NCBI GenBank assembly: GCA_016186635.1
Contig: JACPLI010000016.1
Coordinates: 1 to 55,516 of the forward strand
From: Candidatus Liptonbacteria bacterium
GTDB lineage: Bacteria; Patescibacteriota; Minisyncoccia; UBA6257; 2-01-FULL-56-20
Length of the DNA: 55,516 bases
Direction of reading: 5' to 3'
Both the position numbers and the translations under genes were made by a program. The notes under the pieces are model-generated. The model had not been told where the DNA came from. It made no database searches and saw only the letters and a list, made by a program, of their open reading frames with translations. This document shows, piece by piece, positions 1-54,420 of this stretch. Numbering within the stretch: position 1 is the stretch's first letter; every line of letters begins with the position of its first letter.

Positions 1-697
1 GCTTGGGGCCCTCGTCTTACCGCGGCTGCTGGCACGAGGTTTGCAGCCCCTTATTCACACACTGATCAATAACTTTCTAATGTGTAAAAGAAGTTTACAG
101 GCCGAAGCCCTTCTTCCTTCACGCGGCGTCGCTCGATCAGGCTTTCGCCCATTGTCGAATATTCTCGACTGCTGCCTCCCGTAGGAGTATGGGCCGTGTC
201 TCAGTCCCATCGTTGGGGGTCAGGCTCTCACCTCCCCTACCGGTCGTCGCCTTGGTAGGCCGTTACCCTGCCAACAAGCTGATCGGACCTAAGCCGATCC
301 CAAAGCGGCTTGCGCCTTTAATCGCGCTCTGCGCGGTGTAAACGTTCGAATTGTGCGATTGCTTCGCGTGATCGAATTGTTCGAACGCTCGAACAACTTG
401 AACTTCGAACGCTTTGCACTGTGCAAAGCACGACGCCATCGGGTATTACCTCACCTTTCGATGAGCTATGCCCGGCTTCGGGGTACGTACTAGGGTGTTA
501 CTAACTCGTTCGCCACTATGCGCGCACAGCGCGCTCATCAGCGAATCTCGAATCCGTTACGAATTTACGAATCATTCGTACATTCGGTTTCCATTCGTTA
601 TTCGTTGATAGCGTGCTATGCACGCACCGTTCGACTTGCATGCCTTATCCACGCCGCCAGCGTTCATCCTGGACCAGGATCAAATCCTCGAAAAAAA
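1..697 (-). rRNA. rrs: 16S ribosomal RNA, 5' part (runs off the window start)
   Basis: Reverse complement contains GTGCCAGCAGCCGCGGTAA (18-36), ACTCCTACGGGAGGCAGC (171-188) and TTTGATCCTGG..CAGGATGAACGCTGGCGGC near 650-685; 5' end approximate. Confidence 0.97.
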
Positions 698-973
698 GAT
701 TAATAAAAGCTCATAAAGAGCTTCTACAAATCTCGCACTGCAATTTTTACGAAATTGCTAAAACGTAATTGGAACAACTAAAAAACTCTTTTATTGGTTT
801 GATTCCGATATGTCCCTTGCGGCTCCGCGTCGCGAAGCAGCAAGGTACTTTTCAAAAGTCGGTCGTATATCATAGTTCGAAAAGCTCACCACGCCATAAT
901 TAGCTAAACCTACCGTGAGCACCCACTCGAACCTGTCGCACAGGAAAGTATAAGGATAAACCTATAACTGTCA

Positions 974-2041
974 ATGGCGAAAGAATTGTGTATAATTCCT
1001 GCGAATATCGCTATGAACGACTTAGATGATAAGGGTGTGCGCGAAGCCCTCGCCCGGTATTCTATAGGGCCCGTGAGGGACATATCCCCAATCCTCTCCG
1101 GCCACATCAACGCCACCTACCGCATCGCCACCGCGCAAGGAACATATATCCTCCAACTTCTGGGCGCGGTGTTTAACGAACGCACCGTCTACGACATGGA
1201 GCGCGTGACCGCCCACTTGTCAAAAAAAGGAGTGCTCGCTCCCCGCGTGCTGCATACTGCGGAGGGCGCCTCATTTCTCAAAAGCCCCGGGGGGCGCGTG
1301 TGGCGCCTCACCACATTCATCGAAGGCGATATCTATGAAAATCTGACTCAAGATTCGTACGCCGCCGAGGCAGGCAAAGTGCTCGCGACGTTCCATGTTG
1401 CCATGAGCGATTTTGACGCGAAATTTTTGAAGAGCAAACCCTTCCTCCATAACATACAGGAAATCTACGAATCGTTCTGCGCGGCGTATGAGAATCTTCT
1501 GCGCGAAGAACCGGACAAAGTGCAGCGCGAGTACTATCGGTACATCCAAGAAAAAATGGCTTCTCTCATGTTGCCCGCCGACCTCCCCACCACCATTATT
1601 CACGCCGACCCGAAAATCTCAAACGTCGTGTTTAGTGGAGGCAAAGGTATCTGCATGATAGACCTCGACACCTGCATGCGGCACACACCGCTTGTGGACC
1701 TGGGCGATGCGCTCCGCTGGTGCGCCATTTCGGAGGAAGCATTCCCCAATGCGATGTCCCTCCCACAATTCAAATACAGTATTGAGGGTTATCGCAACGT
1801 GGAACCCCTCTCGCCGGAAATGAAAGAATACCTCATGCAAGCCTTTGCAATGGTGACGCTCGGGCTCGCTTCACGGTTCGCGAAAGATGTTTACCACGAC
1901 AATTATTTCGGCTGGAATCCGAAGAAGTACCCTTCCCGCAAGGAACACAATAAAGCCCGCGCGCGAAGTCTCGTCTCCCTCACGCAAGACATTCTCCGCA
2001 AGGAAAAGGAAATGCGGGACATACTTAAGAGCTGCCACTGA
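974..2041 (+). CDS. APH-family phosphotransferase, N-acetylhexosamine 1-kinase (NahK)-like
   Basis: LSGHINATYRI...YILQLL; IIHADPKISNVVF; MIDLDT...LVDLGDALRW. Start may be 1013. Confidence 0.75.
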   Translation: MAKELCIIPANIAMNDLDDKGVREALARYSIGPVRDISPILSGHINATYRIATAQGTYILQLLGAVFNERTVYDMERVTAHLSKKGVLAPRVLHTAEGASFLKSPGGRVWRLTTFIEGDIYENLTQDSYAAEAGKVLATFHVAMSDFDAKFLKSKPFLHNIQEIYESFCAAYENLLREEPDKVQREYYRYIQEKMASLMLPADLPTTIIHADPKISNVVFSGGKGICMIDLDTCMRHTPLVDLGDALRWCAISEEAFPNAMSLPQFKYSIEGYRNVEPLSPEMKEYLMQAFAMVTLGLASRFAKDVYHDNYFGWNPKKYPSRKEHNKARARSLVSLTQDILRKEKEMRDILKSCH

Positions 2042-2060
2042 CCATTTGGCGATTCCGGCG

Positions 2061-2858
2061 CTATCGTAGAATTTTCCCCAGCTCCTTGGTTATTCTCCTG
2101 TTAGTAACCATAGCTCTAAGTGCGTCGCCGCTTGGCGGGCTAAGGTGAACAATCTCTGCGCCGGCTTCTTTGGCAATTAAAAGAGACCCCGCCTGGTCCC
2201 ATTTGCGGGTGGAACCGGACAAATCAACATAGGCATCAAACGCGCCCGCCGCCAGCAAGCACTGGCCGAACGCGCCGACACGATAGGTTTCCACTTGTGC
2301 GCACGTGGCCACGAGCCGTTCCACAATTTTCATCCGTGCAACAAAATCTTTTTTAATGCTGGGCTGCCTGGCGAACTTCTGCTCCGGCAACTCGACAAAT
2401 ACAAAGGCATCGGACAACTTTCCCGTCTTAGATACGTGAATGGGCGAACCGTTGAGCATAGCGCCCCCATCGGCTTCCGCAAAGAATAACTGCTCTGTGG
2501 TCGGGTGATTGATGGCTGCCGCTATAGTTTTGCCTTGGTACTGCAACGCGATGTTAATAGTATATACAGGAATATTGCGGACAAAATGCGCGCTACCGTC
2601 GATCGGATCCACTATCCAAAGATACTCAGTATCCGGGCGGATAAGTCCTGCTTCCTCCGAATAAATACCGTGGCCAGGAAACTCCTTTTGAATGCGGTTC
2701 AAAATAAGCTTCTCCACTTCAATATCAACATTGGTGGCCAAATCATGGAAATCTTTGCGGTAAACCCTGCGAGAACGATGAGAATGACTCTGCAAAAAAG
2801 CTCCCGCATCAGCCGACAATTTGAGAATGAAACGCTTTATTGTATCGCGAGCAACCAT
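2061..2858 (-). CDS. Inositol monophosphatase family protein
   Basis: WIVDPIDGSAHFVRNIP and GSTRKWDQAGSLLIAKEAGAEI motifs. Confidence 0.9.
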   Translation of the reverse strand: MVARDTIKRFILKLSADAGAFLQSHSHRSRRVYRKDFHDLATNVDIEVEKLILNRIQKEFPGHGIYSEEAGLIRPDTEYLWIVDPIDGSAHFVRNIPVYTINIALQYQGKTIAAAINHPTTEQLFFAEADGGAMLNGSPIHVSKTGKLSDAFVFVELPEQKFARQPSIKKDFVARMKIVERLVATCAQVETYRVGAFGQCLLAAGAFDAYVDLSGSTRKWDQAGSLLIAKEAGAEIVHLSPPSGDALRAMVTNRRITKELGKILR

Positions 2859-2878
2859 ATCTCTTTCTTGCCGTTTCT

Positions 2879-3418: not shown

Positions 3419-3431
3419 TATAAACCATGCG

Positions 3432-6236
3432 TTAAGAAGTTGTATCTGTGCTGCTCTTATTACTTTTTTTTGGCCTCTTTCCCGCTTTCTCATAGGCCTC
3501 CATAATGCAAAAATTAGTGACCATAGACAATCCGTAATCTTCAGCGAACTCTTCGGCCTCGGGCGTGTTGACTCCTTCGGCAAGCCAAACCGTTTTTATG
3601 TCACCCCGCTCCACCACTTCCTTCATGTGCGCCACAACTTCACTCGGCTTTCTGAAAATATCCACTATGTCAATTGAGATATCCCTCGGGATATCCAAGA
3701 GAGTCTTATACGACTTCTCGCCCAAAACTTCCCGGACATTGGGGTTCACGGGGATAATCCGATAACCTTTGCTCTGGAAATACTTTGCCACCCGGTGGCT
3801 ATGGCGCGCGGGCTTGTCGGAGAGACCGACAAAAGCAATAGTCCGGGCATTCTGCAAAATCCTTTCATGTTCGATATGCTTCACTTCAATCGTGGGGCGT
3901 ATGCTCCCCGCCCACTGCCAATTCTCAATTTCCAGGGGGTCCGAACCGAACTTTTTTATATATGCCTGGTGCCGCTTCAGCGCCAAATGATACTTTTTCT
4001 CCGCCCGCTCTTTCTGCTTCTCCGTAATCACTCCTCGCTCAAGTGCGGTTTGCAGTATTTCCAAAGCCAAATGGTAACGGTCCGTGCCGTTGCGCACCTG
4101 CATGTCAAACGGCGTGGTGGTGCCGCCCTCTTCCGAGTAACCATGCACCAAAAACCGTTGCGGATTCTTCAATTTGCACAAGATTGATTCCATGGCCTCG
4201 GGGTAGCCATGAAAATTTACAATGACCGGCTTGTCCATGGTGAGATATTTTTCGGCATTCGGGATTTGCTCATGGAACTCGCCCTCGCACGCGCACGCCG
4301 CTTGCAAACGGACTATGTTCACAAAGCGGATGCGGACTGCCGGAGCGTCTTTTTTTACGAACTCCAACGCCGCCAGCGCTTCCTTAGTCATGTAATCGCC
4401 GACCCCGACCAACACCACATGCGGATTATCATCGCTCGCGAACTCCCAGGTGGAAAGCCCGTCGTTGAGCGCCGCCTTTGCCTGAGCAAGACTGCACCAG
4501 CGGGGCTCCGCCGTCTTTCCCGCCGTGATGATATTTATCTGATTTTTGGAAGAGAGCGCCTCCTCCATGACCGCGAGCATACTATTGTCGTCCACGGGGA
4601 AATATGCTTTCACAAAATCATTGTGCTTCTCGAGCATACCGGAAAGGAATCCGGGGTTTTGGTGCGAGTAGCCGTTATGCTCCTGGCGCCATACCGTGGA
4701 CGTAAGAAGATAGTTCATCGACGGGATATCCAGACGCCAGGGCATTTTGCGGACGTACTTCAAAAATTTCTGGTACATGTGCGCCATGCTGGAAAAAATT
4801 TGCGCGAATGCCTCATAGGTTGTAAGCACCGCGTGCCGGCCGGTGAGCACATAGCCCTGCGCAAGCCCGTGTATATTGTGCTCGGAAAGCATTTCCATTA
4901 CCCGCCCATCACGGGTCATATCTTTGTCCGTCGGATAATGCGGCCAGACAAAGCCGCGGGCGGTTTCCTTGAAAACCTCATCAAGGCGGTTTGAGTAGGT
5001 TTCGTCCGGCGACATCAGGCGGAAATTTTGGGCTTTTTTATTGCGCGCAAAGATTTCCTTAAGATATCCTCCGGCCATGCGCATGGAATTCGATTGCACT
5101 TTCCCCGGGGCACCAACCACCTTCTCCAAATCCTTCGCATCGGGAAGAAGCAAGAGCTTATAGTGCCCACCGAACATATGAGGATTATCTCCAAGCAGGA
5201 ACTTCCCGTCCGGAACAATGTCCAATACCTCTTTGGAAAATCCGGTTTTTGGATTGAATAACTCTCCGAACTTGTATGACCGAAGCCACTCCTCCAGGGC
5301 AAAGAGCTCCTGTTCGTCGCCTTTCACGGTCGGCATAACCACCTGATGGGAAAGGATGGTCCCTTCAATTTTCTGCCCGCGCAGTTCTTTCACCGTCGTC
5401 CAGCCTTTGGGAGTCTTAAGAATAATCATCGGGAAACAAGGCTTGAAATGTCGCGCATTCTTCCTTGCCCGCGCCTGGATTTTTTTAATTTTTTGATACG
5501 CGCGCTCAAGCGTCGCGAACATTTTTTCTCCGCTCTCGTCGTTTTCCACGAATAGCGGCTCATAGCCGTAGCCCTCAAAGAGTTTCTTGAGCTCTTCATC
5601 ACTCATTCTGCCAAAAATGGTAGGGCCAGAAATTTTGTAGCCGTTCAGATGCAAAATAGGCAGCACCGCGCCGTTCACTGCCGGGTCAATAAGCTTGTTG
5701 ATATGCCACGCCGCGGCCATTGCCCCGGTTTCCGCCTCCCCGTCGCCGATGAGCACCGCAGCCAACAAATCAGGGTTGTCTAAAACGGCCCCGTACGCGG
5801 AAGAAAGCGAATAACCCAACTCCCCGCCTTCCAAAATCAAGCCCGGCATCTCCGGACTGCAGTGGCTCGAGAAACCGCGCGGCCAAGCGAACATCTTGGA
5901 AACATAACCGATACCGTCTTCATTGCGACAAGCTTTCCTATAATACTTCCCCAGCGTGCCTTCCAAAAAGAGATTCGCTTGAAGTCCCGGCATGCCGTGC
6001 CCCGGGCCTAACACGAAGATAGCCGACTGGCGGTGTTTCTTCACAAGGTAATTCAAATGGCCGTACACAAAATTAATCCCCGGGCAGGTACCCCAGTGGC
6101 CAAAAAGTTTCGGCTTTATGTCTCCGGCGCGCAAGGGCCTCCGCAACAAAAAATTATCCTGCAGATAAATTTGCGCAACGGTCAGATAATTGGCCGCGCG
6201 GATATATTTGTTGATATTTCCCAGAATCTTTTTCAT
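3432..6236 (-). CDS. xfp: Xylulose-5-P/fructose-6-P phosphoketolase fused to C-terminal CoA-binding (Rossmann) domain
   Basis: GHWGTCPGINFVYGHLN, GPGHGMPG, GDGEAETG, WRQEHNGYSHQNPGF; C-terminal ~140 aa FVGLSDKPARHSHRVAKYFQSKGYRIIPVNP typical of CoA_binding domains. Confidence 0.95.
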   Translation of the reverse strand: MKKILGNINKYIRAANYLTVAQIYLQDNFLLRRPLRAGDIKPKLFGHWGTCPGINFVYGHLNYLVKKHRQSAIFVLGPGHGMPGLQANLFLEGTLGKYYRKACRNEDGIGYVSKMFAWPRGFSSHCSPEMPGLILEGGELGYSLSSAYGAVLDNPDLLAAVLIGDGEAETGAMAAAWHINKLIDPAVNGAVLPILHLNGYKISGPTIFGRMSDEELKKLFEGYGYEPLFVENDESGEKMFATLERAYQKIKKIQARARKNARHFKPCFPMIILKTPKGWTTVKELRGQKIEGTILSHQVVMPTVKGDEQELFALEEWLRSYKFGELFNPKTGFSKEVLDIVPDGKFLLGDNPHMFGGHYKLLLLPDAKDLEKVVGAPGKVQSNSMRMAGGYLKEIFARNKKAQNFRLMSPDETYSNRLDEVFKETARGFVWPHYPTDKDMTRDGRVMEMLSEHNIHGLAQGYVLTGRHAVLTTYEAFAQIFSSMAHMYQKFLKYVRKMPWRLDIPSMNYLLTSTVWRQEHNGYSHQNPGFLSGMLEKHNDFVKAYFPVDDNSMLAVMEEALSSKNQINIITAGKTAEPRWCSLAQAKAALNDGLSTWEFASDDNPHVVLVGVGDYMTKEALAALEFVKKDAPAVRIRFVNIVRLQAACACEGEFHEQIPNAEKYLTMDKPVIVNFHGYPEAMESILCKLKNPQRFLVHGYSEEGGTTTPFDMQVRNGTDRYHLALEILQTALERGVITEKQKERAEKKYHLALKRHQAYIKKFGSDPLEIENWQWAGSIRPTIEVKHIEHERILQNARTIAFVGLSDKPARHSHRVAKYFQSKGYRIIPVNPNVREVLGEKSYKTLLDIPRDISIDIVDIFRKPSEVVAHMKEVVERGDIKTVWLAEGVNTPEAEEFAEDYGLSMVTNFCIMEAYEKAGKRPKKSNKSSTDTTS

Positions 6237-8066
6237 TTATTTGTCGAGCACGGACAAGTCGCCCACGTCCTGCCTCAGCTCCTTTGCTTTCAAAAGCCGC
6301 CGCATGATTTTCCCGCTTCTCGTTTTCGGCAAGCTGGCGACGCACTCTATTTCCTCGGGCACCGCCATACTCGCAATTTCGCGCTTCACGTGATATTTCA
6401 CATCCGCAAGCAGATCTTCACTGGCGACATTCCCGGGCTTTAACACCAAAAACGCCTTAATTCTCTCGCCCTTGATTTCATCCGGCTTGCCGATAACCGC
6501 AGCTTCGGAAACCGCCGGGTGGGAAACCAAAGCGTTTTCTATTTCCGCGGAACCAATGCGGTGGCCGGAAACATTCATCACGTCGTCGCTGCGGCCCAAA
6601 ACCTGGATATCGCCGTCCTCGTCTTTAATAGCGAAGTCCCCGCTAAAATACACGCCTTTAATTTCGTTCCAATATTTTTCAAACCTCTCGTGATTGTTCA
6701 AACAATCCCGCAACGCCGAGGGCCAGGGTTTTCTGATAACGAGGAACCCCTTTCCGTTTACCGGCATGCGATTGCCGCTTGCATCAACCACATCGGCATC
6801 TATTCCAAAAAACGGCTTTCCGGCTTTGCCCGGCTTCTGCCGCAGTCCGGGGAGCGTCACTATCATGTGACCGGCGGTTTCCGTTTGCCACCACGTATCT
6901 TCTATCGGCAATTTGTCCGCGCCGATGTTTTTTTGGTACCACAACCACACCTCCGGGTTAATCGGTTCTCCCACCGTACCCAACACCCGCAAACTGGAGA
7001 AGTTGTGCTTTTTGCAATTCGCTTCGCCGTATTTGCGGAGCATGCGTAACGCCGTGGGCGACGTGTAAAAGACACTGATCTTTTCCTGCGCTATTATTTT
7101 GTACCAATGGTCGGGAGCGGGGTAATCCGGCGCACCTTCCACCATTACGGATGCTACGCCATTCGAGAGCGGCCCATAGAGCACGTAGCTGTGGCCGGTT
7201 ATCCAACCGAAGTCCGCAGTGCACCAGAAAATATCGTCCTCCCGAATGTCAAAAACTTTTTTCGTAGTGTAATGCGTGTACACGCTGTAACCGCCGACCG
7301 TATGCACGATGCCTTTCGGTTTGCCGGTAGAACCGGACGTGTAGAGCACAAACAAGACATCCTCGCTGTCCATTTCTTCCGGCTCACAGACACCGCTTTG
7401 CTTTTCCATCAAGCCTTTGAAATCAACTTCCTTTTCTTTGATCAACTCGAATTTCTCTCCGTCTCTCTGGAGTACTATTACATGGCGCACAAAACCCAGA
7501 TTCTCGATAGCTTCCTCCACCGTTGATTTGAGCTCCTTCTTCTCCCCCCGCCGCAACGTCCATGTGGAAGTAACGACCACTTTGGCGGCACAGTCTTCAA
7601 TCCTCTCCCGCAGCGCGTTTGCGCTGAAACCCGCAAAAACCACGCTGTGAACCGCGCCAATCCTCGCGCAGCCAAGCATCGCGACCGCCTGTTCAATCAC
7701 CAACGGCATGTAGAGAACCACCATATCTCCTTTCTTCACGCCCAAACTTTTCAAACCGTTGGCGAACTTATTGACCTGCCGCAGCAATTCCCGGTAACTG
7801 ATAGTCTTTTTTTTATACTTCTCATTTAAATATATGAGTGCGGTCGTATCGCCCTTGCCGGCGCTAATGTGGCGGTCCAGACAATTATGGGTAATGTTCA
7901 ACCTGCCGCCCACAAACCACTGGTAATTCGGGTAATCCCAGCTAAAAACTTTTTTCCATTTCTGAAACCACTGGATTTCCTCCCCGGCTATGTTCGCCCA
8001 AAACTTCTCCGGGTCCTTGATGGACTCAGCATAAACTTTTTGAAACTGTTCTAAACTCTGACTCAT
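6237..8066 (-). CDS. acsA: Acetate--CoA ligase (AMP-forming)
   Basis: YTSGSTGKPKGIVHTVGGY, WCTADFGWITGHSY, GRSDDVMNVSGHRIG, KTRSGKIMRRLLK; stop abuts the xfp start. Confidence 0.95.
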   Translation of the reverse strand: MSQSLEQFQKVYAESIKDPEKFWANIAGEEIQWFQKWKKVFSWDYPNYQWFVGGRLNITHNCLDRHISAGKGDTTALIYLNEKYKKKTISYRELLRQVNKFANGLKSLGVKKGDMVVLYMPLVIEQAVAMLGCARIGAVHSVVFAGFSANALRERIEDCAAKVVVTSTWTLRRGEKKELKSTVEEAIENLGFVRHVIVLQRDGEKFELIKEKEVDFKGLMEKQSGVCEPEEMDSEDVLFVLYTSGSTGKPKGIVHTVGGYSVYTHYTTKKVFDIREDDIFWCTADFGWITGHSYVLYGPLSNGVASVMVEGAPDYPAPDHWYKIIAQEKISVFYTSPTALRMLRKYGEANCKKHNFSSLRVLGTVGEPINPEVWLWYQKNIGADKLPIEDTWWQTETAGHMIVTLPGLRQKPGKAGKPFFGIDADVVDASGNRMPVNGKGFLVIRKPWPSALRDCLNNHERFEKYWNEIKGVYFSGDFAIKDEDGDIQVLGRSDDVMNVSGHRIGSAEIENALVSHPAVSEAAVIGKPDEIKGERIKAFLVLKPGNVASEDLLADVKYHVKREIASMAVPEEIECVASLPKTRSGKIMRRLLKAKELRQDVGDLSVLDK

Positions 8067-8078
8067 AGGTCGGCTATT

Positions 8079-9920: not shown

Positions 9921-10068
9921 ACCCCAAGGATATGCTTGAGACAAATACTGTCAATGAAAATTTTGACAAGAAACATGACACAAAACATTATAATACTTCA
10001 TAAAAGCATTTATTGTCAGCAATAATTTGACAAAATGGGCAAATAAGCATATATTAAGTAAGAAACCA

Positions 10069-10839: not shown

Positions 10840-10862
10840 AGCCGCGATTTGCCACTCCTCTC

Positions 10863-12104: not shown

Positions 12105-12836
12105 ATGTTGCAGAAAGTCATTCTCGAAATCCGCGCGGGGGCCGGGGGCGACGAAGCCACCATCTTCGCCGGAGACCTCGGCCGTATGTATCAACGGTAC
12201 GCCGCCCTGAAAGGCTGGGGATTTGCCGTCCTCGATAAAAACGAGACTTCTTTAAGCGGATTTAAATCACTCGTCGCGGAGGTGAAGGGAGAAGGCACCT
12301 ATGATGCCTTGAAACATGAGTCCGGCGTCCACCGCGTCCAGCGCGTACCCAAAACCGAAAAAGCGGGCCGGATTCACACCTCGACCGCTTCCGTCGCAGT
12401 TCTCCCGATTGTGGAAGCCAAGGAAGTAATAATCAACCAAGGGGACTTGGAAGTGAGCTTCTCCCGCGCAGGGGGTCCCGGCGGGCAAAACGTGAACAAG
12501 GTGGAAACCGCCGTGCGCATTCTCCATAAACCCACCGGCATCGTCGTCTCCTGCCGTGAAGAGCGCTCCCAGCACGCAAACCGCGAGAAGGCGCTTGAAG
12601 TCCTCCGCGCGAAGCTCTACGAAATCCAGAACGAAGCGACAAGCGACAAGGTACAAGCGACAAGGAGAGAACAAGTGGGCTCCGCCGACCGCTCGGAGAA
12701 AATTCGCACGTACAACTTCCCCGATGACCGGATTACCGACCACCGCTTCGGCGCGAAAGTGCATAACATCGAAAAAGTGCTGGACGGCGATTTGGATGTA
12801 TTGCTTAAGAAAATAAGTAAACAAGTGAATGCTTAA
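12105..12836 (+). CDS. prfA: Peptide chain release factor 1, lacking N-terminal domain 1
   Basis: [51 protein letters not shown]; start chosen downstream of the hairpin. Confidence 0.88.
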
Positions 12837-13330: not shown

Positions 13331-13369
13331 AATGTCATAATTGGGACGATCGTTCCAATTATGACATTT
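13330..13369. terminator. Near-perfect palindrome between convergent Nudix and kinase genes
   Basis: AATGTCATAATTGGGACGATCGTTCCAATTATGACATT. Confidence 0.6.
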
Positions 13370-13395
13370 TGAATTTTGAAATTTGAAATTTGAGC

Positions 13396-16165: not shown

Positions 16166-16308
16166 GATTGTAGAACTCGAAATTATCAATTTCCAATGTT
16201 CAATTTTCAATGAGTGTCCAATGACAAAATTGGATAGTTGAATATTAATTGAAAATTGTGAATTGATACTTGAAAATTATTGAGTCCAATCTGCTATACT
16301 ATACCTAA

Positions 16309-16805: not shown

Positions 16806-16836
16806 CATCCCGCCCTTCCAATGGAAGAGCGGGATG
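16806..16836 (-). terminator. Rho-independent terminator of rnpB
   Basis: Minus strand CATCCCGC-CTTCC..GGAAG-GCGGGATG followed by CTTTTTATTT. Confidence 0.8.
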
Positions 16837-17283
16837 GCAATTCGGTAAGCCGGATTCTGTGCCTTCGACTTGCGTCGAAGCGGCAATCATTTGTCTGGGG
16901 CCCCGCGTACAATAGATTTTCATCTATCACGCGGCCACGTGATCGCGGAGCGATTCTACGTGGCTTGATTGCTCGCGGGCTCTGGCGACTCAAACCAATG
17001 CTTTCGCATTGGAGTACGGTCTTGCACCCGGTAAGGATTTTGCCGTTTCACTTCCGCTTTCTTATCCCTATAGCGGAATTAAACCAATCTAGCTTGGGAT
17101 AGGGTCTTCCCTCGGGTTTCCCCTCGGGACGTCACTGCTCGCACCTCTAAGCTTGCGCTCGGCGGCTGTTAGCCGCTACGTATACTGGTGAACTAGCATC
17201 TAGAAACTAGCTACTAGCAACCAGCGTGGTGTCCGGACTTTCCTCTCTTCAACTTGCGTCAAAGAGCGACTGCCTGAATTGCT
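16837..17283 (-). ncRNA. rnpB: RNase P RNA
   Basis: Minus strand GAGGAAAGTCCGGACACC near 5' end, AGAATCCGGCTTACCG near 3' end, terminal GCAATTC/GAATTGC pairing (P1). Confidence 0.93.
17192..17226. repeat. 7-nt-phased repeat array inside rnpB
   Basis: ACTAGCA|TCTAGAA|ACTAGCT|ACTAGCA|ACCAGCG. Confidence 0.85.
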
Positions 17284-17315
17284 CTTTTTTTATATCAAAT
17301 TAACCATAAAAGTCA

Positions 17316-17357: not shown

Positions 17358-17993
17358 CTAGTGAAACCCCAAGTCCGCCGGATTATGCGCCCCGGAAATC
17401 CGGAGTACTTCCCCGCCTTGTTTCTCGAATTCTTTTCGGAGCGCAGCCACCTCGCGCGCGAGCCGGAAGGTTTCTTCGGGCACGTCTTTCTTTATCCGCC
17501 ACTTGCTCCAAAACTCAATCACAAGCTTGCTGTCACCGAACACTTTCTCCACTCCCTCCTGCATCGCAATCTCGAGCGCGTGCTTGCACGCAAGGAGTTC
17601 GCCGTAATTGTTTGTAACTTCCTTTCCCAACGCGTGTTTCTTAAAGCGGTTCAACTCCTCGCGCGGCAATGCCCTGTGCAAAAGATTCTTGCCCTTCTCA
17701 TCTGTCACGCTTACCTCCACCCCTTCCCCGCGCCCCGTGCCTGCGTCGAAGTAAATCCCCGGCGCAAGCTCCTGCACGTGCTTCACCGCATAATCCGCCC
17801 CCAGCGCGAGCCACTTCTCCGCTTCTTCCCTCGCCTTGAATCCCTTGAACCGCGCGCTCTGTTTCCCCAACACCAGTTTTTCCGCCTCGCCCCACCCCTC
17901 GGCAACGCCCTCTCCACCGCCGGGGATGCGCCACGCGTAGTACTTTTTTGACACTTTCTTCTTATCCCCGAAAAGGTTTTGCTCTTTCTTCAT
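17358..17993 (-). CDS. Ribonuclease HI-like protein with N-terminal hybrid-binding (caulimovirus VI-type) domain
   Basis: KKYYAWRIPGG...KFKAREEAEKWL-like N-terminus; YFDAGTG, NNYGELLACKHALE, DSKLVIEF, AHNPAD. Confidence 0.8.
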   Translation of the reverse strand: MKKEQNLFGDKKKVSKKYYAWRIPGGGEGVAEGWGEAEKLVLGKQSARFKGFKAREEAEKWLALGADYAVKHVQELAPGIYFDAGTGRGEGVEVSVTDEKGKNLLHRALPREELNRFKKHALGKEVTNNYGELLACKHALEIAMQEGVEKVFGDSKLVIEFWSKWRIKKDVPEETFRLAREVAALRKEFEKQGGEVLRISGAHNPADLGFH

Positions 17994-18030
17994 AGTGAAT
18001 GGCTTGGGATTCGGGATTCCTCAGTCTGCC

Positions 18031-18062
18031 GAAGTCGAACTTCCTTAGGGAAGTTCGACTTC
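18031..18062. terminator. 14-bp perfect stem-loop downstream of zinc-ribbon gene A
   Basis: GAAGTCGAACTTCC-TTAG-GGAAGTTCGACTTC. Confidence 0.55.
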
Positions 18063-18075
18063 CAAACATTGATTC

Positions 18076-19901: not shown

Positions 19902-21740
19902 TTATAGTATCTCCGCATTATAGCAACTTTCGCAGTACACAGTTTCCTTCCGCTCCGGCGCGTAGGGCGTCTCGAGTTCGTTCGGGCACGACGCGTCGCC
20001 ATGAAAATGTGCGGCAGTATTTTTATAGCCACTTGTTCCTTGTTCCTTGTTACTTGTTCCTTTATTGCAACTGCAACGCCGATGCCACAATTTCAGAGGA
20101 TTCCTTTGGGCAAGCCGCTCATAATGGCGGCAGTTGGGACAGAGGCGTGGGAGTGGAACATTCCTACTCTTATAATATTGAAGCTCCTCGCGCAAAACCC
20201 TGAATGCAGTGGTGCATTGATGTTTACATAAACCGTTATGCGCGCACCCAATCACCTCATCGCACACTGAATCATCAGCATCCTTGATGTGGTCAGCTAA
20301 ATCCTCGGGATTCTTCGTAACAGAATAATGCTTCGCGTCCGGTTTTCTCCACCGATATCCGCGCGAATCTACCTCTTTCTCCGTAAGCGAAAAGTATTCT
20401 TGCGCAAGCGTTTCGTTATACGCGAACGGCGAAAATTCGATGGGAAAAAACTCCCCGTACTTGTATTCGATTACCTTGTCGCTTGATCCTTGTCGCGTGT
20501 TGCTGATATACGGCACCTCGTCCATATGCGCGATAATCTTCGGCGCAAGCGCCTCATATTCTTCCTTTGAGTATTGCCGATTCAAGATGCAATACTGCTT
20601 ATTGCGGATTCCCACGCATCCGAAAAGATGAGAGGAAGACCCGCAGTTGGCGCTATACTGCACATCGTGATTATGCCCATCAAACCCGTGAATGTTGAAT
20701 CGCACAAAAGAACTATGCGCGCTTCCAGTCCCCTGACATTCGTATAAAAGTTCGGAGTTGATACCGAGGTAGGTAAGGTCCATCGCATCTCTCGTGGTAA
20801 GAATCCGAAACGCGAACTTCACATTCTCGATGTCGTGACTGCTGAAACACACGCGTGCATTTTTCGAATTAATGAGGTCGTTCCCCGTGCAATTTGAGCA
20901 ATTAAGAATTATCGCGTACTTATGGAGGGCGTTTCGTATCGCCGCTAAGAACTCTTCGTAGAGACTCACCGATATTTTGTAGCTCCCAAAGTCAATTTTG
21001 TTGATCTCTCTTTTATATTCCTCTTTCGTGCAGGGGGCATTCTTGATATAAAACTCTTTATTGCGAAGATTGGTGCACATGAAACAGTTGCGGCAATTTA
21101 CGCAGTCATAGAGATACCGAGAGTCCAGACAACTGCGGGAGAAATAAATGAAATCGCAATTATAGTTCTTATATCCAAGCATACCTTGAAACACATTCTC
21201 TGATTCCACCACGTCAAAGCTGTCGAAGACCGAGCGCGATGTATCAATATCTTTCGAGTAAAACACGTCTTCCGAGCTCAAGAGAGAATAGGAAAGATAT
21301 ATGCGGGTAGAATCGCGCAGCATATTCCCGCCGTAGGGAGAATGGGTAGAGTTGGTAACATATAAATTCCGCTGGGGGACATCGGTAAAAAGAGCGCGCC
21401 ACTGCTCAAAAAAACTCTTATTCCAGTCGTACGGACGACCATGCTGCATTGCGTCCCATTTGTCCGATGCATAACACTCCACGCAATACACCGCATAAGG
21501 GGCTTGGGGTGCGAATGCGGAAAAAACGGCGACGCTACATAGGTCGCAATTCCGTTTGTAGAGACAACGCTCATTTCTCCACACTAACCGCCGCACGAGC
21601 CGGCACTCCGGGCACCATGTGGGAGGCGGGACCTTGATTTTTTTATAGAAATCGAAGTCCTCCGGTTCTATGACAAAATCTTTTTTGCAGTTTTGGCACT
21701 TCCGTTGTTCGGAGTTATTCATTCTCATCATCATACTCAT
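19902..21740 (-). CDS. Cys-rich zinc-ribbon/putative solenoid protein, paralog B (unknown function)
   Basis: Same architecture as A, including APERKETVYCESCYNAEIL. Confidence 0.85.
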   Translation of the reverse strand: MSMMMRMNNSEQRKCQNCKKDFVIEPEDFDFYKKIKVPPPTWCPECRLVRRLVWRNERCLYKRNCDLCSVAVFSAFAPQAPYAVYCVECYASDKWDAMQHGRPYDWNKSFFEQWRALFTDVPQRNLYVTNSTHSPYGGNMLRDSTRIYLSYSLLSSEDVFYSKDIDTSRSVFDSFDVVESENVFQGMLGYKNYNCDFIYFSRSCLDSRYLYDCVNCRNCFMCTNLRNKEFYIKNAPCTKEEYKREINKIDFGSYKISVSLYEEFLAAIRNALHKYAIILNCSNCTGNDLINSKNARVCFSSHDIENVKFAFRILTTRDAMDLTYLGINSELLYECQGTGSAHSSFVRFNIHGFDGHNHDVQYSANCGSSSHLFGCVGIRNKQYCILNRQYSKEEYEALAPKIIAHMDEVPYISNTRQGSSDKVIEYKYGEFFPIEFSPFAYNETLAQEYFSLTEKEVDSRGYRWRKPDAKHYSVTKNPEDLADHIKDADDSVCDEVIGCAHNGLCKHQCTTAFRVLREELQYYKSRNVPLPRLCPNCRHYERLAQRNPLKLWHRRCSCNKGTSNKEQGTSGYKNTAAHFHGDASCPNELETPYAPERKETVYCESCYNAEIL

Positions 21741-28860: not shown

Positions 28861-28918
28861 TGAGTGAGTGGTGAGTGGTAAGTGGTAAGTGGCTTTTCAC
28901 TTATCACTTCTCACTTAA
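28861..28918. repeat. Inverted pair of 7-nt-phased repeats upstream of rplU
   Basis: GTGGTGA|GTGGTAA|GTGGTAA|GTGGCTT then CACTTAT|CACTTCT|CACTTAA. Confidence 0.8.
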
Positions 28919-28923
28919 CACTA

Positions 28924-30282: not shown

Positions 30283-30384
30283 GGGAGTAATCGCGAATAA
30301 TGCAAATTTGAATTAAATAATGCGAATTGATTGTACCATGTTATTCGCGTTATTTTCCCTTATTCGCGATATTTGCGATCACTC

Positions 30385-44569: not shown

Positions 44570-47500
44570 TTCGAGAATAGAACCAAGCTGCGGCGCGCGG
44601 CCCGCGTTATACGTCTGGCTCGAAGCGCTGCCGCCCGTGCACGTATACGTCGGATTTGAAGCGCCGCCAAACGTACATGTTTGACCCGCAGGACAGGTGC
44701 CGAAGAACTTCCCGCCCTGGTCGCCGCAAAGACCAGTGAACGTCTGCGTCGGCGCATAGGTGGTGCCGGTGTATGAGGTCTGGCCGGTTGAGGGCGCGTA
44801 GGTGGTGCCGGTGTAGGTAGTCCCGCCAGTTGTGGGTGCATAGGTCGTGCCGGTGTAGGTGGTGCCACCCGTGGTTGGCGCATAGGTGGTGCCGGTGTAG
44901 ACGGTCTGACCGGTTGAGGGCGCGTAGGTGGTGCCGGTGTAGGTAGTCCCGCCAGTTGTGGGTGCATAGGTCGTGCCGGTGTAGGTGGTGCCACCCGTGG
45001 TTGGCGCATAGGTGGTGCCGGTGTAGGTGGTGCCACCCGTGGTGGGCGCATAGGTGGTGCCGGTGTAGACGGTCTGACCGGTTGAGGGCGCATAGGTGGT
45101 GCCGGTGTAGGTAGTCCGCGAATCCTGCCCGACTTGCACCGTGACTGACTCGCTCGCAGAATTCCCCGACGCATCCACACACTTCACCGTGTAGGTCTTG
45201 GTTGCGATGAGCGCCCCCGTGGTGTAGCTCCCCGACGACTGGATGAACGAGTTCCACGGCGCACTGCACGAGTACGCAGCCGCAGGGAATGTCAACGAAA
45301 TCTCCGAGGACTCATTCGCCGGAACCACTGGAGGATTCGCGCGGAGCACGGGAGAAAGCGCGCCTGCTCCACCGCTGCCGCCAGTCGCTTGCCCCGGCTG
45401 CGCAGTGCCTGCGCCGCCTCCCGTCGCGGGCGCGGTTCCCGCCCCAGTCCCACCAGTGCTGTCTCCACCGGGAAACGCAGGAGCAGGTTGCGCCCAAGGA
45501 GGCGGCAACGCGGTCGTTCCCTGCGTCTGACCGGTCGCCGGTGCCGGCCGGCTTGCCGTGTTAATGATGGTGAAGTAGGAATCACTAATATCTGAAACCG
45601 CATCATCACCTAAAATACTGGGGGTTACGTCCATATTTACCTTTACCCTATAGTCACTGTCTGCAGTGAGAGTGCCAAAAACTGAACTAGGAGCGATAGT
45701 CCACGCTATTCCATTCTCGGTGAACGGACCATCCCATCGGTACACCACATCATTTCCCTTAAAGAGTTGGACTGTATACACCGCCGAACTGGGGTAGTTA
45801 GAGTTCCAGCTAATTTTTTGCGTTGATCCAATCTGCCATACCTCCCCTCCATTCGGCGAAAGGACGGTGATGGAGGGTTGGGCGGAAGATTTGACAGTCA
45901 TCACCGACAGAGAGGGAAGAACAGTCGAGAGAGAATGAGTGGTGCCACCACCAACCACCCCTGTGACCGAAAGCTGGATGGTAGTCCCGTCTTGGATACG
46001 CGGCGATACCGTCCCGTAGATGTAGAGTATGTTCTTGCCCTCGCGTAACGGAATGTTCGCATTCCAAAATCGTATCGGGTATCGTCCAGAAACATATGAA
46101 GTGTCCGCTCGGGCAATATTTCGATCAGGTAGTGAACCGTTCTGCAATAGCACGTTGCTCAACACATCACTGTTCGACTGGCTTAGCCCAGCACTCGCAT
46201 CACCATTCAAACTGAACTTGAGATCAATGCTCGAAAGCGAGGTAGCGCCGCCAGTTACCGTAACCTCAATTGTCCCCAAAGGACGCTCCGGCACCCCTGC
46301 TTGTATGTTCTGCGACGGGAACATTAAAGAATTAGCAAAGGTGATGGAGGGCTGGGTGGTTTGCGATGAAACCACGTTCACCGTAACTGTATTGGAACGA
46401 TATTGCTGGCCACCTTTATAGATGACGACATAAAATTGGCTTGAACCGACAACTCTGGCGGTGCATGTCATCACCCATTCCGATGTTGGCAACCCTTCAT
46501 TATTGCCGCAATTGTTGTTGTTCCCGAAGGTCCGGTCAAAGAAATACGCCCGAGAATAGCCGATTGAATCTACTGTATTTGCGCCAAAGTTATACGGCAG
46601 TCCCTGGAGATTCTGTGGCGTACCAGAAATCTGAAAAGTGCTGCCAATAGGCACATTAAGAACTGAATCACTGCTCTTTTCTCCGGATGAAACAGATAGA
46701 CGAATGGACGGCGGCGTCGAGGTGGAAACGCCACCACTCAACGTCCGCACGACGGTAACGGAGTTGCTCCGCGACGAACCGAGCGAAACCGTTGCACGAT
46801 TGTTGGACGTTGCGCCCACCGCCCAGAATGAATCATCTTTCACGACATCGAAGTAGTGAACGCTGTTGTCTTTTACTGCGTTCGCGGCATACGACGCCAC
46901 GTCACCCTTCAACACAAGCGTGATAGAACCACCCTTCGGAATCTTTGGTGACGACGAGAAGTGGAAATCGTAGTAATAAATTCCACCAGTGCCTAATGCG
47001 GCTCCCGCCGTCGCAAGCGCGACGTTCGGATTGTCTGCCGAATAAAGCGTGAGGCGCGAGAATCCCGACGTCAAACCGACACCATCCACAAGCTGCTGCA
47101 CTCTGAAGTCGCTCATAATCGCGTCCTCCACGTTCGTTGTTTCGGTGAACCGCCACGCCGCGAGCGTCACATTCGTCGAACCCATCGCCACTTGCCGCGC
47201 GGGCGGCGAGAGCGCGCTGTCCAAACTCACTTGTACCGTCGCCTGACTTGAAACTTCCCCCGGCTTGATAATCTGGGCTACACCGAGTGTCACGCTCTGC
47301 CGCCAGGTCGCAACCAAAACTCCTCGCTGATAGAGCTCGATAACAATCGTGTTCTCCCCAGAAACCGCCCAAAATGGGGATGACCATCTCGCCGTCACCA
47401 CTTGTCCCCTGCCAGGGGCGAGCGAAGAATAGGAACTACCTCCCATATCCCAGTTATTCGTGGCATTTTTTGTCTTGATTTCCCATGGTCCCGCATCTGC

Positions 47501-48259: not shown

Positions 48260-48342
48260 CCCATTAGCATATACCCAACCCCCCCTCGCAACAAGGGTGT
48301 GGATAACTACATAAGTATCCCGTCATTACCTACACACCGTTT

Positions 48343-48433
48343 GTCATTCCCACCCCCGATCATAGTCGAGGGCAGGCTCCAGCGGGAATCTAGGGCATGG
48401 ATCCCCGCGTGCGCCTGCCTGCGACAGTCGGGG
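48343..48433. repeat. Composite palindromic element
   Basis: CATTCCC...GGGAATCTAGGGCATGGATCCCCG...CGGGG with further palindromic sequence inside both loops. Confidence 0.6.
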
Positions 48434-48454
48434 CTAATCGCTCATGGCCGCACC

Positions 48455-50719: not shown

Positions 50720-50752
50720 GCCGTGTACCTTACCACACTTTATTTCTTTTGT

Positions 50753-51808: not shown

Positions 51809-51827
51809 GTATATCGATATATCGAAG

Positions 51828-52391
51828 TTAAACTTCGATATTTTCCTTAAATCCTTGCGTTGCCGCTGAATCAATATAGGTATGGAACTCGGCGTAGCGC
51901 GGGAGTTCCTCGCGCCTCCCTACGCCAAGGTGCCGGAGGGAATCGGCAGTAAGGTCATATACTGTCGAATGAGGCGCCGCAGGGTCGGCGCTCTTTTCCA
52001 CAAGCCCGCGAAGCCGGAGCGTGCGGAGCGTAAACGAAGAATTCACTCCGCGCAGGAAATCCAATCGTGCGCGGGAAATAGGCCCGCCGTAGGCGACGAG
52101 CGAAAGCGCCTCAAGAGTCGCCGGCGTAAGTTCCTCGGTAAGCTCCTCTTTCATAAAGGCGAGAAGAAGGCCGCCAAATTGCGGCTTTGTCACAAGCTGA
52201 ATTTCTTCCGGAGTGGAAAGCAGGGTAAGCCCGCGCGCCTCTGATGCAAATTCCGCCTGCAACGCCTTGATAAGCGCCTCGCATTCCTCCCTTTTCACCT
52301 CCAATATCTTCTCAACTTTCAACCTCTTCATTGGCTCCCCGTGCGTGAAGAGCAATGCTTCCAGCCGCGCAATTTTTTCTTGCATTTCCAT
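51828..52391 (-). CDS. scpB: Segregation and condensation protein B
   Basis: LEALLFTHGEPM...LSLVAYGGPISRARLDFLRGVNSSFTLRTLRLRGLVE. Confidence 0.88.
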   Translation of the reverse strand: MEMQEKIARLEALLFTHGEPMKRLKVEKILEVKREECEALIKALQAEFASEARGLTLLSTPEEIQLVTKPQFGGLLLAFMKEELTEELTPATLEALSLVAYGGPISRARLDFLRGVNSSFTLRTLRLRGLVEKSADPAAPHSTVYDLTADSLRHLGVGRREELPRYAEFHTYIDSAATQGFKENIEV

Positions 52392-52424
52392 GTCGCTTGT
52401 TACTTGTCGCTTGTTACTTGTCGC
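52391..52424. repeat. 7-nt-phased repeat spanning scpA end and scpB start
   Basis: CTTGTTA|CTTGTCG|CTTGTTA|CTTGTCG on plus strand. Confidence 0.85.
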
Positions 52425-53125
52425 GCATCTCTCTGCGCGACAATTATATCAGAGAAATTCCCCTTCTGCGCGAGGTGCACCCGCCCTTCGCGGGCGAGGT
52501 GAAGCACTGCAAGAAAGAGCGCCACCACCTCCGCAATATGCCGCTCCCCCGCAACCGCGCGGAAACTCATCGCGCCTTCCTGCGTGAGCCGCGCAAGCAC
52601 TTCCGCAATCTTTTCCTCAATCGCAATAATCCGTTCCTTGAGTGTTTCCGTCTCGCGCGTGAAGAGCGATAAGCTCTTCACCACTCCTTCAAGCGCCGCC
52701 GCGAGTCCCTCGCGCGTGAGATTCGACGACGGATAAAATGCGGCACCGGTCGAAAGAAAGTAGGGTCTGCTCCGCAACTTCGCGCTTCCCCGGAACGCGG
52801 CGGCAATGCACTTCTCTGCGGGGCGCCATAATTTATAGAACGCGAGGCGCTGTTCAAGGTCATGGATTTCCGCCTCTTCCTCCTCGGTGAGCGCAAGGTC
52901 AGGAAGCAGCATCTTCGACTTAATAAGGAGGAGGCGGCTCGCGACGGCGACGAACTCCGCGAGGACTGCGGGCGCCACCTGCTCCTGCGCCTGAAGATAA
53001 CGCAGGAAATCATCGGTTACTTTCGCAAGACTCACCTCGGTAATGTCGAGCTGCTTCTCCTCGATAAGCTGGAGAAGTTTCGCAATGGGTCCCTGAAATT
53101 GTTCGAGCGCGAGCTGGTAGGACAT
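52400..53125 (-). CDS. scpA: Segregation and condensation protein A
   Basis: FQGPIAKLLQLIEEKQLDITEVSLAKVTDDFLRYL...LLIKSKMLLP. Confidence 0.9.
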   Translation of the reverse strand: MSYQLALEQFQGPIAKLLQLIEEKQLDITEVSLAKVTDDFLRYLQAQEQVAPAVLAEFVAVASRLLLIKSKMLLPDLALTEEEEAEIHDLEQRLAFYKLWRPAEKCIAAAFRGSAKLRSRPYFLSTGAAFYPSSNLTREGLAAALEGVVKSLSLFTRETETLKERIIAIEEKIAEVLARLTQEGAMSFRAVAGERHIAEVVALFLAVLHLAREGRVHLAQKGNFSDIIVAQRDARQVTSDK

Positions 53126-53132
53126 ACAAGCG

Positions 53133-53199
53133 GCGTATAGCGTATAGCGTATAGCGAATGCCGCATCTCGCCAAGTGATTTACGATTTACGATTTACGA
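53133..53199. repeat. Two 7-nt tandem repeats in the scpA/dnaX divergent spacer
   Basis: GCGTATA x3 + GCGAATG; TTTACGA x3. Confidence 0.92.
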
Positions 53200-53202
53200 A
53201 CT

Positions 53203-54333
53203 ATGATTCACCGCATGGGACTCGCCTTCTACCGCAAATACCGCCCGAAACAGCTCGCGGACGTGCTCGGGCAGGAAACGAATGTCGCGCTTTTGAAGAA
53301 CGCCGCGCGCGACGGGCGGCTCGGGCATGCGTACCTCTTTTACGGCCCCCGCGGCACCGGCAAGACCACGACCGCCCGCCTCATCGCGAAACTCTTGAAC
53401 TGCGAGCGGCGGCGGAATGAGACGGCGTTCGCCAAAACCGGCGAGCCGTGCAACGTGTGTCTTGCCTGCACCTCGGTGGACGCGCAGGGCTCCTTCGACG
53501 TGATTGAAATTGACGCCGCATCAAACCGCGGGATAGACGAAATCCGGAACCTCAAAGAGAGCATTGTGACCGCGCCGTCGCACGGCACCCACAAGATTTA
53601 CATCATTGATGAAGCGCACATGCTCACGCCCGCGGCGTGGAACGCGCTTTTAAAAACGCTCGAAGAGCCGCCGCGCCACGCCGTCATCATTCTCGCCACC
53701 ACCGAGTATGAAAAACTCCCGCCCACCATCACGTCGCGCACCCAGCGCTTCCTTTTCAAGAAACTCTCGAAGACGCATATCATGGAAAAACTCCGGCGGA
53801 TTGCGAAGGCGGAAAAAATAACGATTGACGACGCCGCGCTCGAAATCATCGCCGCCGCCGGAGAAGGCTCCGCGCGTGATGCGGAGTCCCTCCTTGACCA
53901 GGCGGCAAGCTGGGGCGGGAACATTGATGCCCGCACGGTGGAGGAGCTCACCGGAAGAGCCGGGCTCCGCAAGGTGCACGCGCTCGCGGAGCTTGTCCTG
54001 AAGAAGGAACTGGGCAAGGCGCTTGAGGCGCTTCGCGCCAGGCACGACGAAGGGCACAACATGACAGACTTCACAAAGGACCTCATCCACTACCTCCGCA
54101 AAGCGCTCACGCTTGCGCTCCACCCCGCACTCCTAAAAGCGTACCGGCTCGACTTTACCGACGAAGAATTGAAATCGCTCCAGTCGCTCACCCCGCTCAT
54201 GAAGAGCGAGACGGCAATTCCTCTCATCCGCGCGCTCATCAGGAGCTACGCCGAAATGCGCTACAGCCAGTTCGCGGCGATTCCAATAGAGATTGCCTTA
54301 ATCGAACAGCTACAAGTAACAAGGGACAAGTAA
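53203..54333 (+). CDS. dnaX: DNA polymerase III subunit gamma/tau (short form)
   Basis: LAFYRKYRPKQLADVLGQE, LFYGPRGTGKTTTARLIAK, VIEIDAASNRGIDEIRNLKE; start possibly 53215. Confidence 0.95.
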   Translation: MIHRMGLAFYRKYRPKQLADVLGQETNVALLKNAARDGRLGHAYLFYGPRGTGKTTTARLIAKLLNCERRRNETAFAKTGEPCNVCLACTSVDAQGSFDVIEIDAASNRGIDEIRNLKESIVTAPSHGTHKIYIIDEAHMLTPAAWNALLKTLEEPPRHAVIILATTEYEKLPPTITSRTQRFLFKKLSKTHIMEKLRRIAKAEKITIDDAALEIIAAAGEGSARDAESLLDQAASWGGNIDARTVEELTGRAGLRKVHALAELVLKKELGKALEALRARHDEGHNMTDFTKDLIHYLRKALTLALHPALLKAYRLDFTDEELKSLQSLTPLMKSETAIPLIRALIRSYAEMRYSQFAAIPIEIALIEQLQVTRDK

Positions 54334-54420
54334 CAGGGGGCAGGGAAAACCTGAAGAGTATAAAAACGCCCTGCATGTGGGCGTCTTCCTTGTCACTTGT
54401 TCCCTGTCGCTTGTTACTTA
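54311..54420. repeat. Inverted 7-nt-phased repeats flanking a hairpin, downstream of dnaX
   Basis: ACAAGTA|ACAAGGG|ACAAGTA|ACAGGGG ... CTTGTCA|CTTGTTC|CCTGTCG|CTTGTTA. Confidence 0.85.
54363..54387. terminator. Hairpin terminator between dnaX and pilin-like gene
   Basis: AAACGCCC-TGCATG-TGGGCGTC; T-run on minus strand. Confidence 0.6.

Follow-up and report, generated by a model that had tools for sequence, protein, structure and literature searches.

We analyzed a stretch of 55,516 nucleotides from Candidatus Liptonbacteria bacterium (contig JACPLI010000016.1 of assembly GCA_016186635.1; hereafter, the window), in which short arrays of 7-nt tandem repeats, or heptads, are dispersed across genes, spacers, and RNAs. 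These arrays probably represent inverted ends, or remnants without the gene, of small mobile elements that carry a single gene of family PF05635 (TIGR02436), annotated as 23S rRNA intervening sequence protein (IVP), S23, or four-helix-bundle protein. The observations behind this reading are the period, length, and polarity of the arrays, their position on both sides of IVP genes, the match between dispersed words and the words found at IVP genes, and sites that are occupied in one sequence and empty in another. A complete unit would consist of an array, an IVP gene, and an inverted array, would span roughly 0.4 to 0.6 kb, and would insert mainly at gene junctions, between a stop and a start codon. 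Gene-less hairpins or single arms would be tolerated in surface loops of proteins and in RNA helices. Each element lineage would have its own word, which would account for the presence of several words in one genome and of different words in related species.

IVP genes between inverted heptad arrays

The window belongs to a genome of 921 kb (31 contigs, two of them masked; 97.85% complete), designated G000; G381 and G380 are congeneric genomes. Contigs of G000 and G381 are given as C numbers and individual loci as L numbers. The placement in Patescibacteria assumed in the earlier note is sound, and the window shares its phylum with the Uhrbacteria: PF05635 matches in the Candidatus Uhrbacteria genome that contains L143 (G463) are identical to those in G248, which is of the same phylum as the window. 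All arrays named in an earlier note on this DNA were recovered in the window with Tandem Repeats Finder. Six exact lag-7 runs in the window reach a length of at least 12, against 0.0 expected from a third-order Markov model; neither period 6 nor period 8 yields any. Genome-wide, there are 86 lag-7 runs of at least 10 (1.0 expected), 35 of at least 14 (0 expected), and 23 of at least 21 (0 expected), against 17, 1, and 0 runs for period 6 and 7, 0, and 0 for period 8, which agrees with the earlier note in that the network is genome-wide and specific to period 7. At a gapless score of 11, G000 without its masked contigs has 171 period-7 arrays, compared with 38, 12, and 28 arrays of periods 6, 8, and 9. 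Being tandem, built of a 7-nt unit, and dispersed in many copies, the arrays agree in these features with heptanucleotide repeats of the short tandemly repeated repetitive (STRR) kind. They are not restricted to Patescibacteria, as one word by itself matches genomes of many phyla among the matches listed. The G380 genome, with no arrays in a first 40 kb, was dropped as an array-free control: 279 kb of it held 14 period-7 arrays at score 11, at a lower density.

Array pairs at G381 C1:164486/164900 and G000 C9:46919/47395 each enclose exactly one gene, which encodes a 23S rRNA-IVP/four-helix-bundle protein (PF05635, E = 2.4e−29; TIGR02436 above the cut-off). We searched for PF05635 in 61 relatives and in 380 genomes of the phylum and, for other phyla, in 50 array-bearing genomes, as well as in plasmid records. 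Inverted arrays of matching words lie on both sides of 50 of the 102 PF05635 loci with readable flanks, but at only 1 of 397 shifted positions of the same loci (Fisher's exact test, P = 8.5e−39), and at least one heptad array is present at 81 of the 102. The flanked loci comprise 27 of 60 in Patescibacteria, 15 of 30 in other phyla, and 8 of 12 in cyanobacterial plasmids. The median arm length at PF05635 genes is 31 nt, equal to that of arrays genome-wide. The shifted-position controls test location and not gene type; a comparison within G000 takes in other small genes as well. Inverted arrays flank 4 of its 8 PF05635 genes (none of the eight lies in the window), 6 of 846 other genes, and 1 of 359 other small genes. 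Heptad flanks are missing at the G000 IVP genes C27:8007 and C22:44046. The heptad-less PF05635 gene on C27 (7940-8490) has ATATCGAAATTTTGATAT hairpins on either side.

Gene and arrays also go together across genomes. ACAAG arrays are present in 3, 9, 21, and 40% of genomes with 0, 1 to 2, 3 to 5, and 6 or more PF05635 genes, respectively (380 genomes, kinship ignored; odds ratio 9.1, P = 2e−8). Among array-bearing genomes of other phyla, 43 of 50 have PF05635, compared with 0 of 14 control genomes. PF05635 matches 23 of 72,556 plasmid records, nearly all of them from cyanobacteria (such as Nostoc, Calothrix, and Anabaena), and these genes are likewise flanked by heptamer arrays. Heptanucleotide repeats were described early in the same group, in Calothrix (as cited in PMC4692102), which makes the outcome of the plasmid search telling. 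Patescibacteria sequences are metagenome assemblies and the cyanobacterial plasmids are finished records, so the presence of array-flanked genes in the latter answers the question, raised in the earlier note, of whether the arrays are assembly artifacts. The plasmid IVP genes lie within operons, between the subunits of ribonucleotide reductase, between cas6 and cas4, and among cmr genes. The CRISPR-Cas operons with IVP elements (L382, L385, and L388) carry them at cas6/cas4 and cas10/cmr3 junctions.

At five sites in finished plasmids of Nostoc, Calothrix, Tolypothrix, and Aulosira, one record carries an element that another lacks. At a site with identical flanks (L398 versus L394/L395), GGTGAGGTAATG directly joins GGATTTGAATTACAACG in the empty state; in the occupied state, an AAAAGGG array, the gene, the inverted array, and ATGGGATTTG come after it. 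On a related plasmid backbone (L387), another copy of the element lies one gene away. L393 has the arms without a gene at a site where L383 has the gene, and appears to be an occupied site left with a gene-less remnant. Within the genus, a CAATT element of G000 separates two transporter genes (livH/livM-like) that overlap by 4 nt in G380, and an ACAAG element separates genes that are four bases apart (TAAC) in G381; the arrays of the G000 elements contribute a stop codon to the gene on one side and an N-terminus to the gene that follows. Where the site is otherwise conserved, the whole array-gene-array unit is either there or missing, as in a DNA transposon. Candidate target duplications are ATG at one site and a TTCTA-like sequence at another, and are indistinct at the other sites.

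These comparisons show all three parts together, which bears on whether the arrays could be made by something else, with the IVP gene as a hitch-hiker or as a dispensable gene that survives only in insertion-tolerant junctions. We consider this unlikely. Other small genes of G000 are not flanked in this way, the arrays at IVP genes share a word and form inverted pairs of constant polarity, and the presence of the gene predicts arrays phylum-wide, even if arrays and IVP genes both occur in tolerant places, most arrays have no IVP gene nearby, and some array-bearing genomes lack PF05635.

Word families, slippage, and a possible pentameric reader

The modal length of the 171 G000 arrays is 31 nt; when they are pooled with G381 arrays, the median is 31 nt and 55% fall between 29 and 33 nt. 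Their words form families in which a core is combined with roughly two variable bases: ACAAG-NN, CAATT-NN, AGTG-NNN, GGAAT-NT, GCAAA-NN, TAG-NNNN, and others. In arrays detected with no core presupposed, two columns account for 0.82 of the mismatches in G000 (0.71 in random) and 0.91 in G381 (0.75 in random). The number of units has a maximum at four to five and shows no decay (ACAAG arrays with three, four, five, six, and seven units number 2, 26, 9, 2, and 2). The variable dinucleotides depend very little on those of the neighboring unit (likeness of 0.37 versus 0.29 in random, and 0.27 versus 0.17). Whole 30- to 31-mers reappear at unlinked loci of G000 and in a congeneric species. The earlier note had stressed that the words differ between arrays; several words do coexist, but they are not arbitrary, given this sharing of whole 30- to 31-mers.

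Many arrays are arms of inverted pairs, which the earlier note had missed (in the window, 28864-28892/28893-28922, 54312-54339/54386-54415, 53133/53177, and 16181/16247). Array neighbors within 150 nt of each other in G000 are inverted in 34 cases, direct in 9, and unclear in 15. The polarity of inverted pairs is constant and alike in unrelated phyla, with a G-rich 5′ arm at 39 loci and a C-rich one at 5 (P = 1.4e−7). RNA hairpins maintained by compensatory change were rejected, as arms within a pair are no more similar (likeness 0.798, n = 33) than same-word arms of other loci (0.811, n = 148) and show no coupling. Each arm of a pair belongs to the word family independently, and neither is a complementary copy of the other. 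A G-quadruplex basis was rejected as well: most words here are not G-rich, and the number of units is nonetheless maximal at four to five. The preference for four units reported for Xanthomonas and Nostoc therefore need not mean G-quadruplexes.

From a shared period with divergent words, the earlier note had concluded that a "periodic generating process rather than descent of one element" was at work. The four-to-five-unit peak, the near-independence of variable bases, and the recurrence of 30-mers speak against this conclusion, as do the fixed polarity of inverted pairs and the presence or absence of array-gene-array units at otherwise identical sites; together, they fit several mobile-element lineages, each with its own word. 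For the same reasons, we find it rather improbable that heptamers are made or expanded locally, with no element, by replication slippage or by a polymerase advancing in 7-nt steps, a hypothesis for bacterial heptamers that is cited in PMC4692102. Arrays stretched by slippage would decay in length and copy their variable bases, and slippage thus explains poorly the lack of decay beyond four to five units, the near-independence of neighboring variable bases, the sharing of identical 30-mers between unlinked loci in two species, the constant polarity of inverted pairs, and PF05635 flanking with empty sites. It is favored by the prominence of period 7 in many unrelated bacteria, by the purity and length of some arrays (particularly outside Patescibacteria), by the identity of variable columns at lag 7, which slightly exceeds that at lag 21 (0.54 versus 0.46), and by 7-nt indels between Cyanothece strains (PMC4679880). 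Slippage may lengthen arrays after insertion.

Gene-less arrays use the same words as arrays that flank genes. Each of the four flanked IVP genes of G000 has a word of its own (ACAAG, GGAAT, AGTG, or CAATT), and these words are matched by 83 of 163 dispersed G000 arrays and by 16 of 55 in G381 (P = 0.005). Conversely, the words at G381 IVP genes are matched by 21 of 55 arrays in G381 and by 21 of 163 in G000 (P = 1e−4). Across 40 loci, protein identity correlates weakly with word similarity (Mantel rho = 0.22, P = 0.0015).

We hypothesize that the IVP protein itself would recognize the array. By analogy with TRAP, the reader would be a homopentameric ring in which every subunit takes one heptad; the 31-nt arm, with five 3-nt cores at 7-nt spacing, would fit a pentamer. 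Such a ring would account for the period, the number of units, the loose spacers, and the tolerance of word drift. Among solved structures, the nearest are 2gsc (E = 2.7e−19; XCC0516 of Xanthomonas campestris) and 2rld, which have five chains each, and pentamers of the four-helix-bundle/IVP fold have been published. TRAP is a ring of identical subunits that reads evenly spaced short cores with loose spacers, the cores being triplets; it is unrelated to IVP and would serve only as an analogy of function. Outside Patescibacteria, arms can be longer than 31 nt, and the upper length limit is thus not general. Gene-less pairs would have been moved in trans or would be decayed copies. PF05635 proteins share conserved Q34, R37, S41, N45, E48, R52, S68, and E71 (alignment numbering).

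Several results weigh against the proposal that the arrays are the ends and remnants of IVP-bearing mobile elements. The gene-bearing elements contain the PF05635 gene alone, with no recognizable transposase or recombinase and no nameable motif in the alignment, and we know of no catalytic motif for PF05635 and of no recombinase. About half of the 102 PF05635 loci have no clear inverted pair, and arrays are mostly solo, with only 2 PF05635 genes in 116 loci that were selected through their ACAAG arrays and total 826 kb. Seven of the 50 array-bearing genomes of other phyla, including the isolates of Luteimonas, Paraglaciecola, and Pseudomonas cichorii, gave no PF05635 match. Half of the dispersed G000 arrays match no IVP word that was found, and sets of IVP words drawn at random from other genomes match on average 38 of the 163 arrays (maximum 91, 300 draws); hence, the match of G000 arrays to their own IVP words is strong but not unique. 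The specificity of words across IVP proteins is weak. Target duplications are short and imprecise, and presence or absence at a site could reflect loss as well as gain.

Arrays in the window and their genomic context

The arrays of the window, together with a hairpin family that is not heptad-based, are as follows.

541 to 606, minus strand: extension of 16S rRNA helix h6 (V1), read from the sequence, with CGAAT/ATTCG words at 7- to 9-nt spacing, hairpin-like
About 12634 to 12665, plus strand: ACAAGCG/ACAAGGT array in prfA (RF-1), in a basic segment of the RF-1 domain
13357 to 13393, plus strand: ATTTTGA array between convergent genes
16181 to 16265: inverted pair upstream of lysS, CAATTNN (16181-16212) and AATTGNN (16247-16265)
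17191 to 17225, minus strand: CTAGNNA array, a helix insertion in RNase P RNA (rnpB, 16830-17285, minus strand)
20032 to 20062, minus strand: ACAAGGA array in coding sequence, in frame as KGTSNKEQGTS, in a variable loop missing in the G381 homologue
24793 to 24825, plus strand: AATTCCA array in a membrane-protein-like open reading frame (ORF; 24235-25773)
24947 to 24980, plus strand: weaker TTCTTGC/TTCCTGC array, also in ORF 24235-25773
28864 to 28922: inverted pair AGTGGTA (28864-28892) and CACTTNN (28893-28922), filling the gap upstream of rplU
30283 to 30384, plus strand: non-heptad hairpin family GGAGTGATCGC...GCGATTACTCC at a stop-to-start junction, with 20-mers found up to 24 times in the genome
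32219 to 32256, minus strand: ACAAGGA array at the C-terminus of a penicillin-binding protein transpeptidase gene
52391 to 52424, minus strand: ACAAGCG/ACAAGTA array at the junction of ORF 51828-52391 and scpA (52400-53125)
53133 to 53199: inverted pair GCGTATA (53133-53159) and ATTTACG (53177-53199), between scpA and dnaX
54312 to 54415: inverted pair ACAAGTA (54312-54339) and CTTGTCA (54386-54415), overlapping the 3′ end of dnaX

The pair upstream of rplU shares its word with the arrays that flank a PF05635 gene at G000 C9:47002. Two arrays lie in structural RNAs. Class A RNase P RNA was found at 16830-17285 on the minus strand (E = 5e−25, with a score under the Rfam gathering cut-off), and a heptad array is inserted in it, as the earlier note had proposed; heptamers also occur in rnpB of cyanobacteria. 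The 16S rRNA match at positions 1 to 695 (minus strand) spreads 539 model positions across 695 bases. The V1 array of 7- to 8-nt words described in the earlier note is present, but its spacing is not strictly 7 nt. Its CGAAT word reappears in intergenic hairpins elsewhere.

In G000, 95 of the 171 arrays are intergenic by our own gene calls although about 81% of bases are coding, in line with the mostly intergenic placement of STRRs. Between genes, arrays adjoin stop and start codons. In coding sequence, they are in frame and within variable loops, and the conserved core is intact (44 proteins aligned with their G381 orthologues); several of the orthologous loops in G381 carry a repeat peptide of a different word. 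Orthologous junctions of congeners often have arrays in both species, likewise with different words. A heptad array translates to one seven-residue peptide in all three frames, and ACAAGGA is free of stops in each of them, which, judging from its sequence and the genetic code, is probably why this word is favored in coding sequence. Corresponding loops of G380 proteins (L227, L228, and L267-L277) have repeat-like peptides (KFKIQNSKFRK, NSKSKIKNS, and VPNSQFPI) that resemble decayed old arrays.

The proximity to start codons could suggest that heptads are regulatory sites, read by S1, cold-shock, or CsrA-like proteins for translation control, as PMC4679880 proposes for TAACTGA. Many arrays do abut start codons that have no Shine-Dalgarno motif, and TAACTGA-like words are present here too. 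Arrays are, however, equally found after stop codons and on both strands, they form in-frame loops of conserved proteins and occur in rnpB and 16S rRNA, and orthologous genes of congeners have different words, all of which makes this explanation highly improbable.

The non-heptad hairpins (GGAGTAATCGCGAATAATGCGAAT...GCGATTACTCC) are about 100 nt long and extend exactly from stop codon to start codon at many loci (e.g., G000 C30:48013-48104); they are possibly a related class. Perfect hairpins of another kind (GGAAGTCNGACTTCC...GGAAGTCNGACTTCC) lie between tandem genes and are terminator-like with no clear T run (window 17993-18075; G000 C30:37080, C22:10226, and C16:31929). A repeat of 10 to 19 copies (AACCAACACGAAAGTTCCCTTAACC, AACTTTTTCGTCTGCCTTGA) at window positions 55442-55516 and at several contig ends is probably an insertion sequence that broke the assembly. 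Among the other genes of the window, ORF 25905-28286 (793 aa) has two matches to D-Ala-D-Ala ligase, with the N and the C domain each occurring twice, which is an unusual fusion in tandem; a phosphoketolase fused with a CoA-binding domain (3432-8066) adjoins an acetyl-CoA synthetase gene; and a 1243-aa ORF contains a 42-bp tandem repeat of 8.7 copies with a 126-bp superperiod (44751-45117).

Comparison with known systems

To our knowledge, the heptanucleotide repeats of cyanobacteria, Xanthomonas, and Beggiatoaceae have no agreed origin, and the widely annotated IVP family has no known function. Linking them turns two problems into one testable question. If the arrays derive from IVP-bearing elements, this would account for in-frame repeat peptides in conserved proteins (TRNKEQG, NSKFQIP, QLPITNY, and SSLITHH), for length variation of 16S rRNA and rnpB in Patescibacteria, and for some of the fast turnover of intergenic sequence in compact genomes, and it suggests a very small mobile element.

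Two known systems resemble the arrays in part. REP/REPIN elements, moved by RAYT (Y1 tyrosine) transposases, are likewise small, dispersed, mostly intergenic inverted pairs with few gene-bearing copies. Their protein is unrelated to IVP, however, and the arms here are tandem heptads. We rejected this origin, which we regard as extremely improbable, because no Y1 transposase (PF01797) was found in the array-rich G000 and G381; the family is present in the array-poorer G380. It is also very unlikely that the arrays belong to a retroelement related to diversity-generating retroelements (DGRs), in which the IVP gene would play the part of Avd beside a reverse transcriptase that acts in trans. By profile, Avd shares its fold superfamily with IVP, bAvd/Avd models give scores for PF05635 proteins, and G381 and about half of the relatives have RVT_1. 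Those scores are under the curated cut-offs (NF033474, 42 bits versus 80; PF22296, 38 versus 40), and neither a template nor a variable repeat was seen. For G000, a DGR was rejected because RVT_1 has no match in this nearly complete genome.

The STRR heptamers of heterocystous cyanobacteria, named in the earlier note as the closest precedent, retain that place; four-helix-bundle genes on cyanobacterial plasmids are flanked by heptamers too. The arrays resemble bacterial heptamers in their 7-nt unit, about four units, intergenic bias, convergent inverted pairs, placement near stop and start codons, and additional presence in coding sequence. GGGNATC heptamers (GGGAATC in Xanthomonas, GGGGAYT in Nostoc) prefer four units and form 70 to 75 convergent inverted pairs per Xanthomonas genome, with their function left open (PMC4692102), and TAACTGA heptamers of Beggiatoaceae adjoin start codons, with translation regulators considered for them (PMC4679880). 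Unlike in these reports, with one word per genome and with G-quadruplexes or translational control proposed, many words coexist here, most of them not G-rich. The present arrays also differ from reported STRR heptamers in flanking a specific gene family; S23/IVP genes are not mentioned in PMC4692102 or PMC4679880, and we found no paper in the open-licence literature that links heptamer repeats with IVP genes or rRNA intervening sequences.

The 23S intervening sequence (IVS) of Coxiella has been described as a selfish element with an S23 gene and terminal inverted repeats (28-bp stem) that was presumably transferred horizontally (PMC4990558). The elements proposed here are similar to such IVSs in encoding an S23/IVP (PF05635) protein and in having terminal inverted repeats at their ends. 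Unlike IVSs, which reside in rRNA helices and are excised by RNase III, the gene-bearing copies examined lie at protein-gene junctions across genomes, with none placed in a 23S rRNA helix, and heptad-phased ends are a feature read in the present elements. STRR heptamers and rRNA intervening sequences were each known already. We see an even balance of chances that they have a common source, namely, a class of mobile elements spread over many phyla, with no known recombinase and with a pentameric four-helix-bundle protein whose subunits would each read one heptad at both ends, and that this class gave rise, with a separate word in each lineage, to heptanucleotide repeats (STRRs, TAACTGA, and GGGAATC) and rRNA intervening sequences alike.

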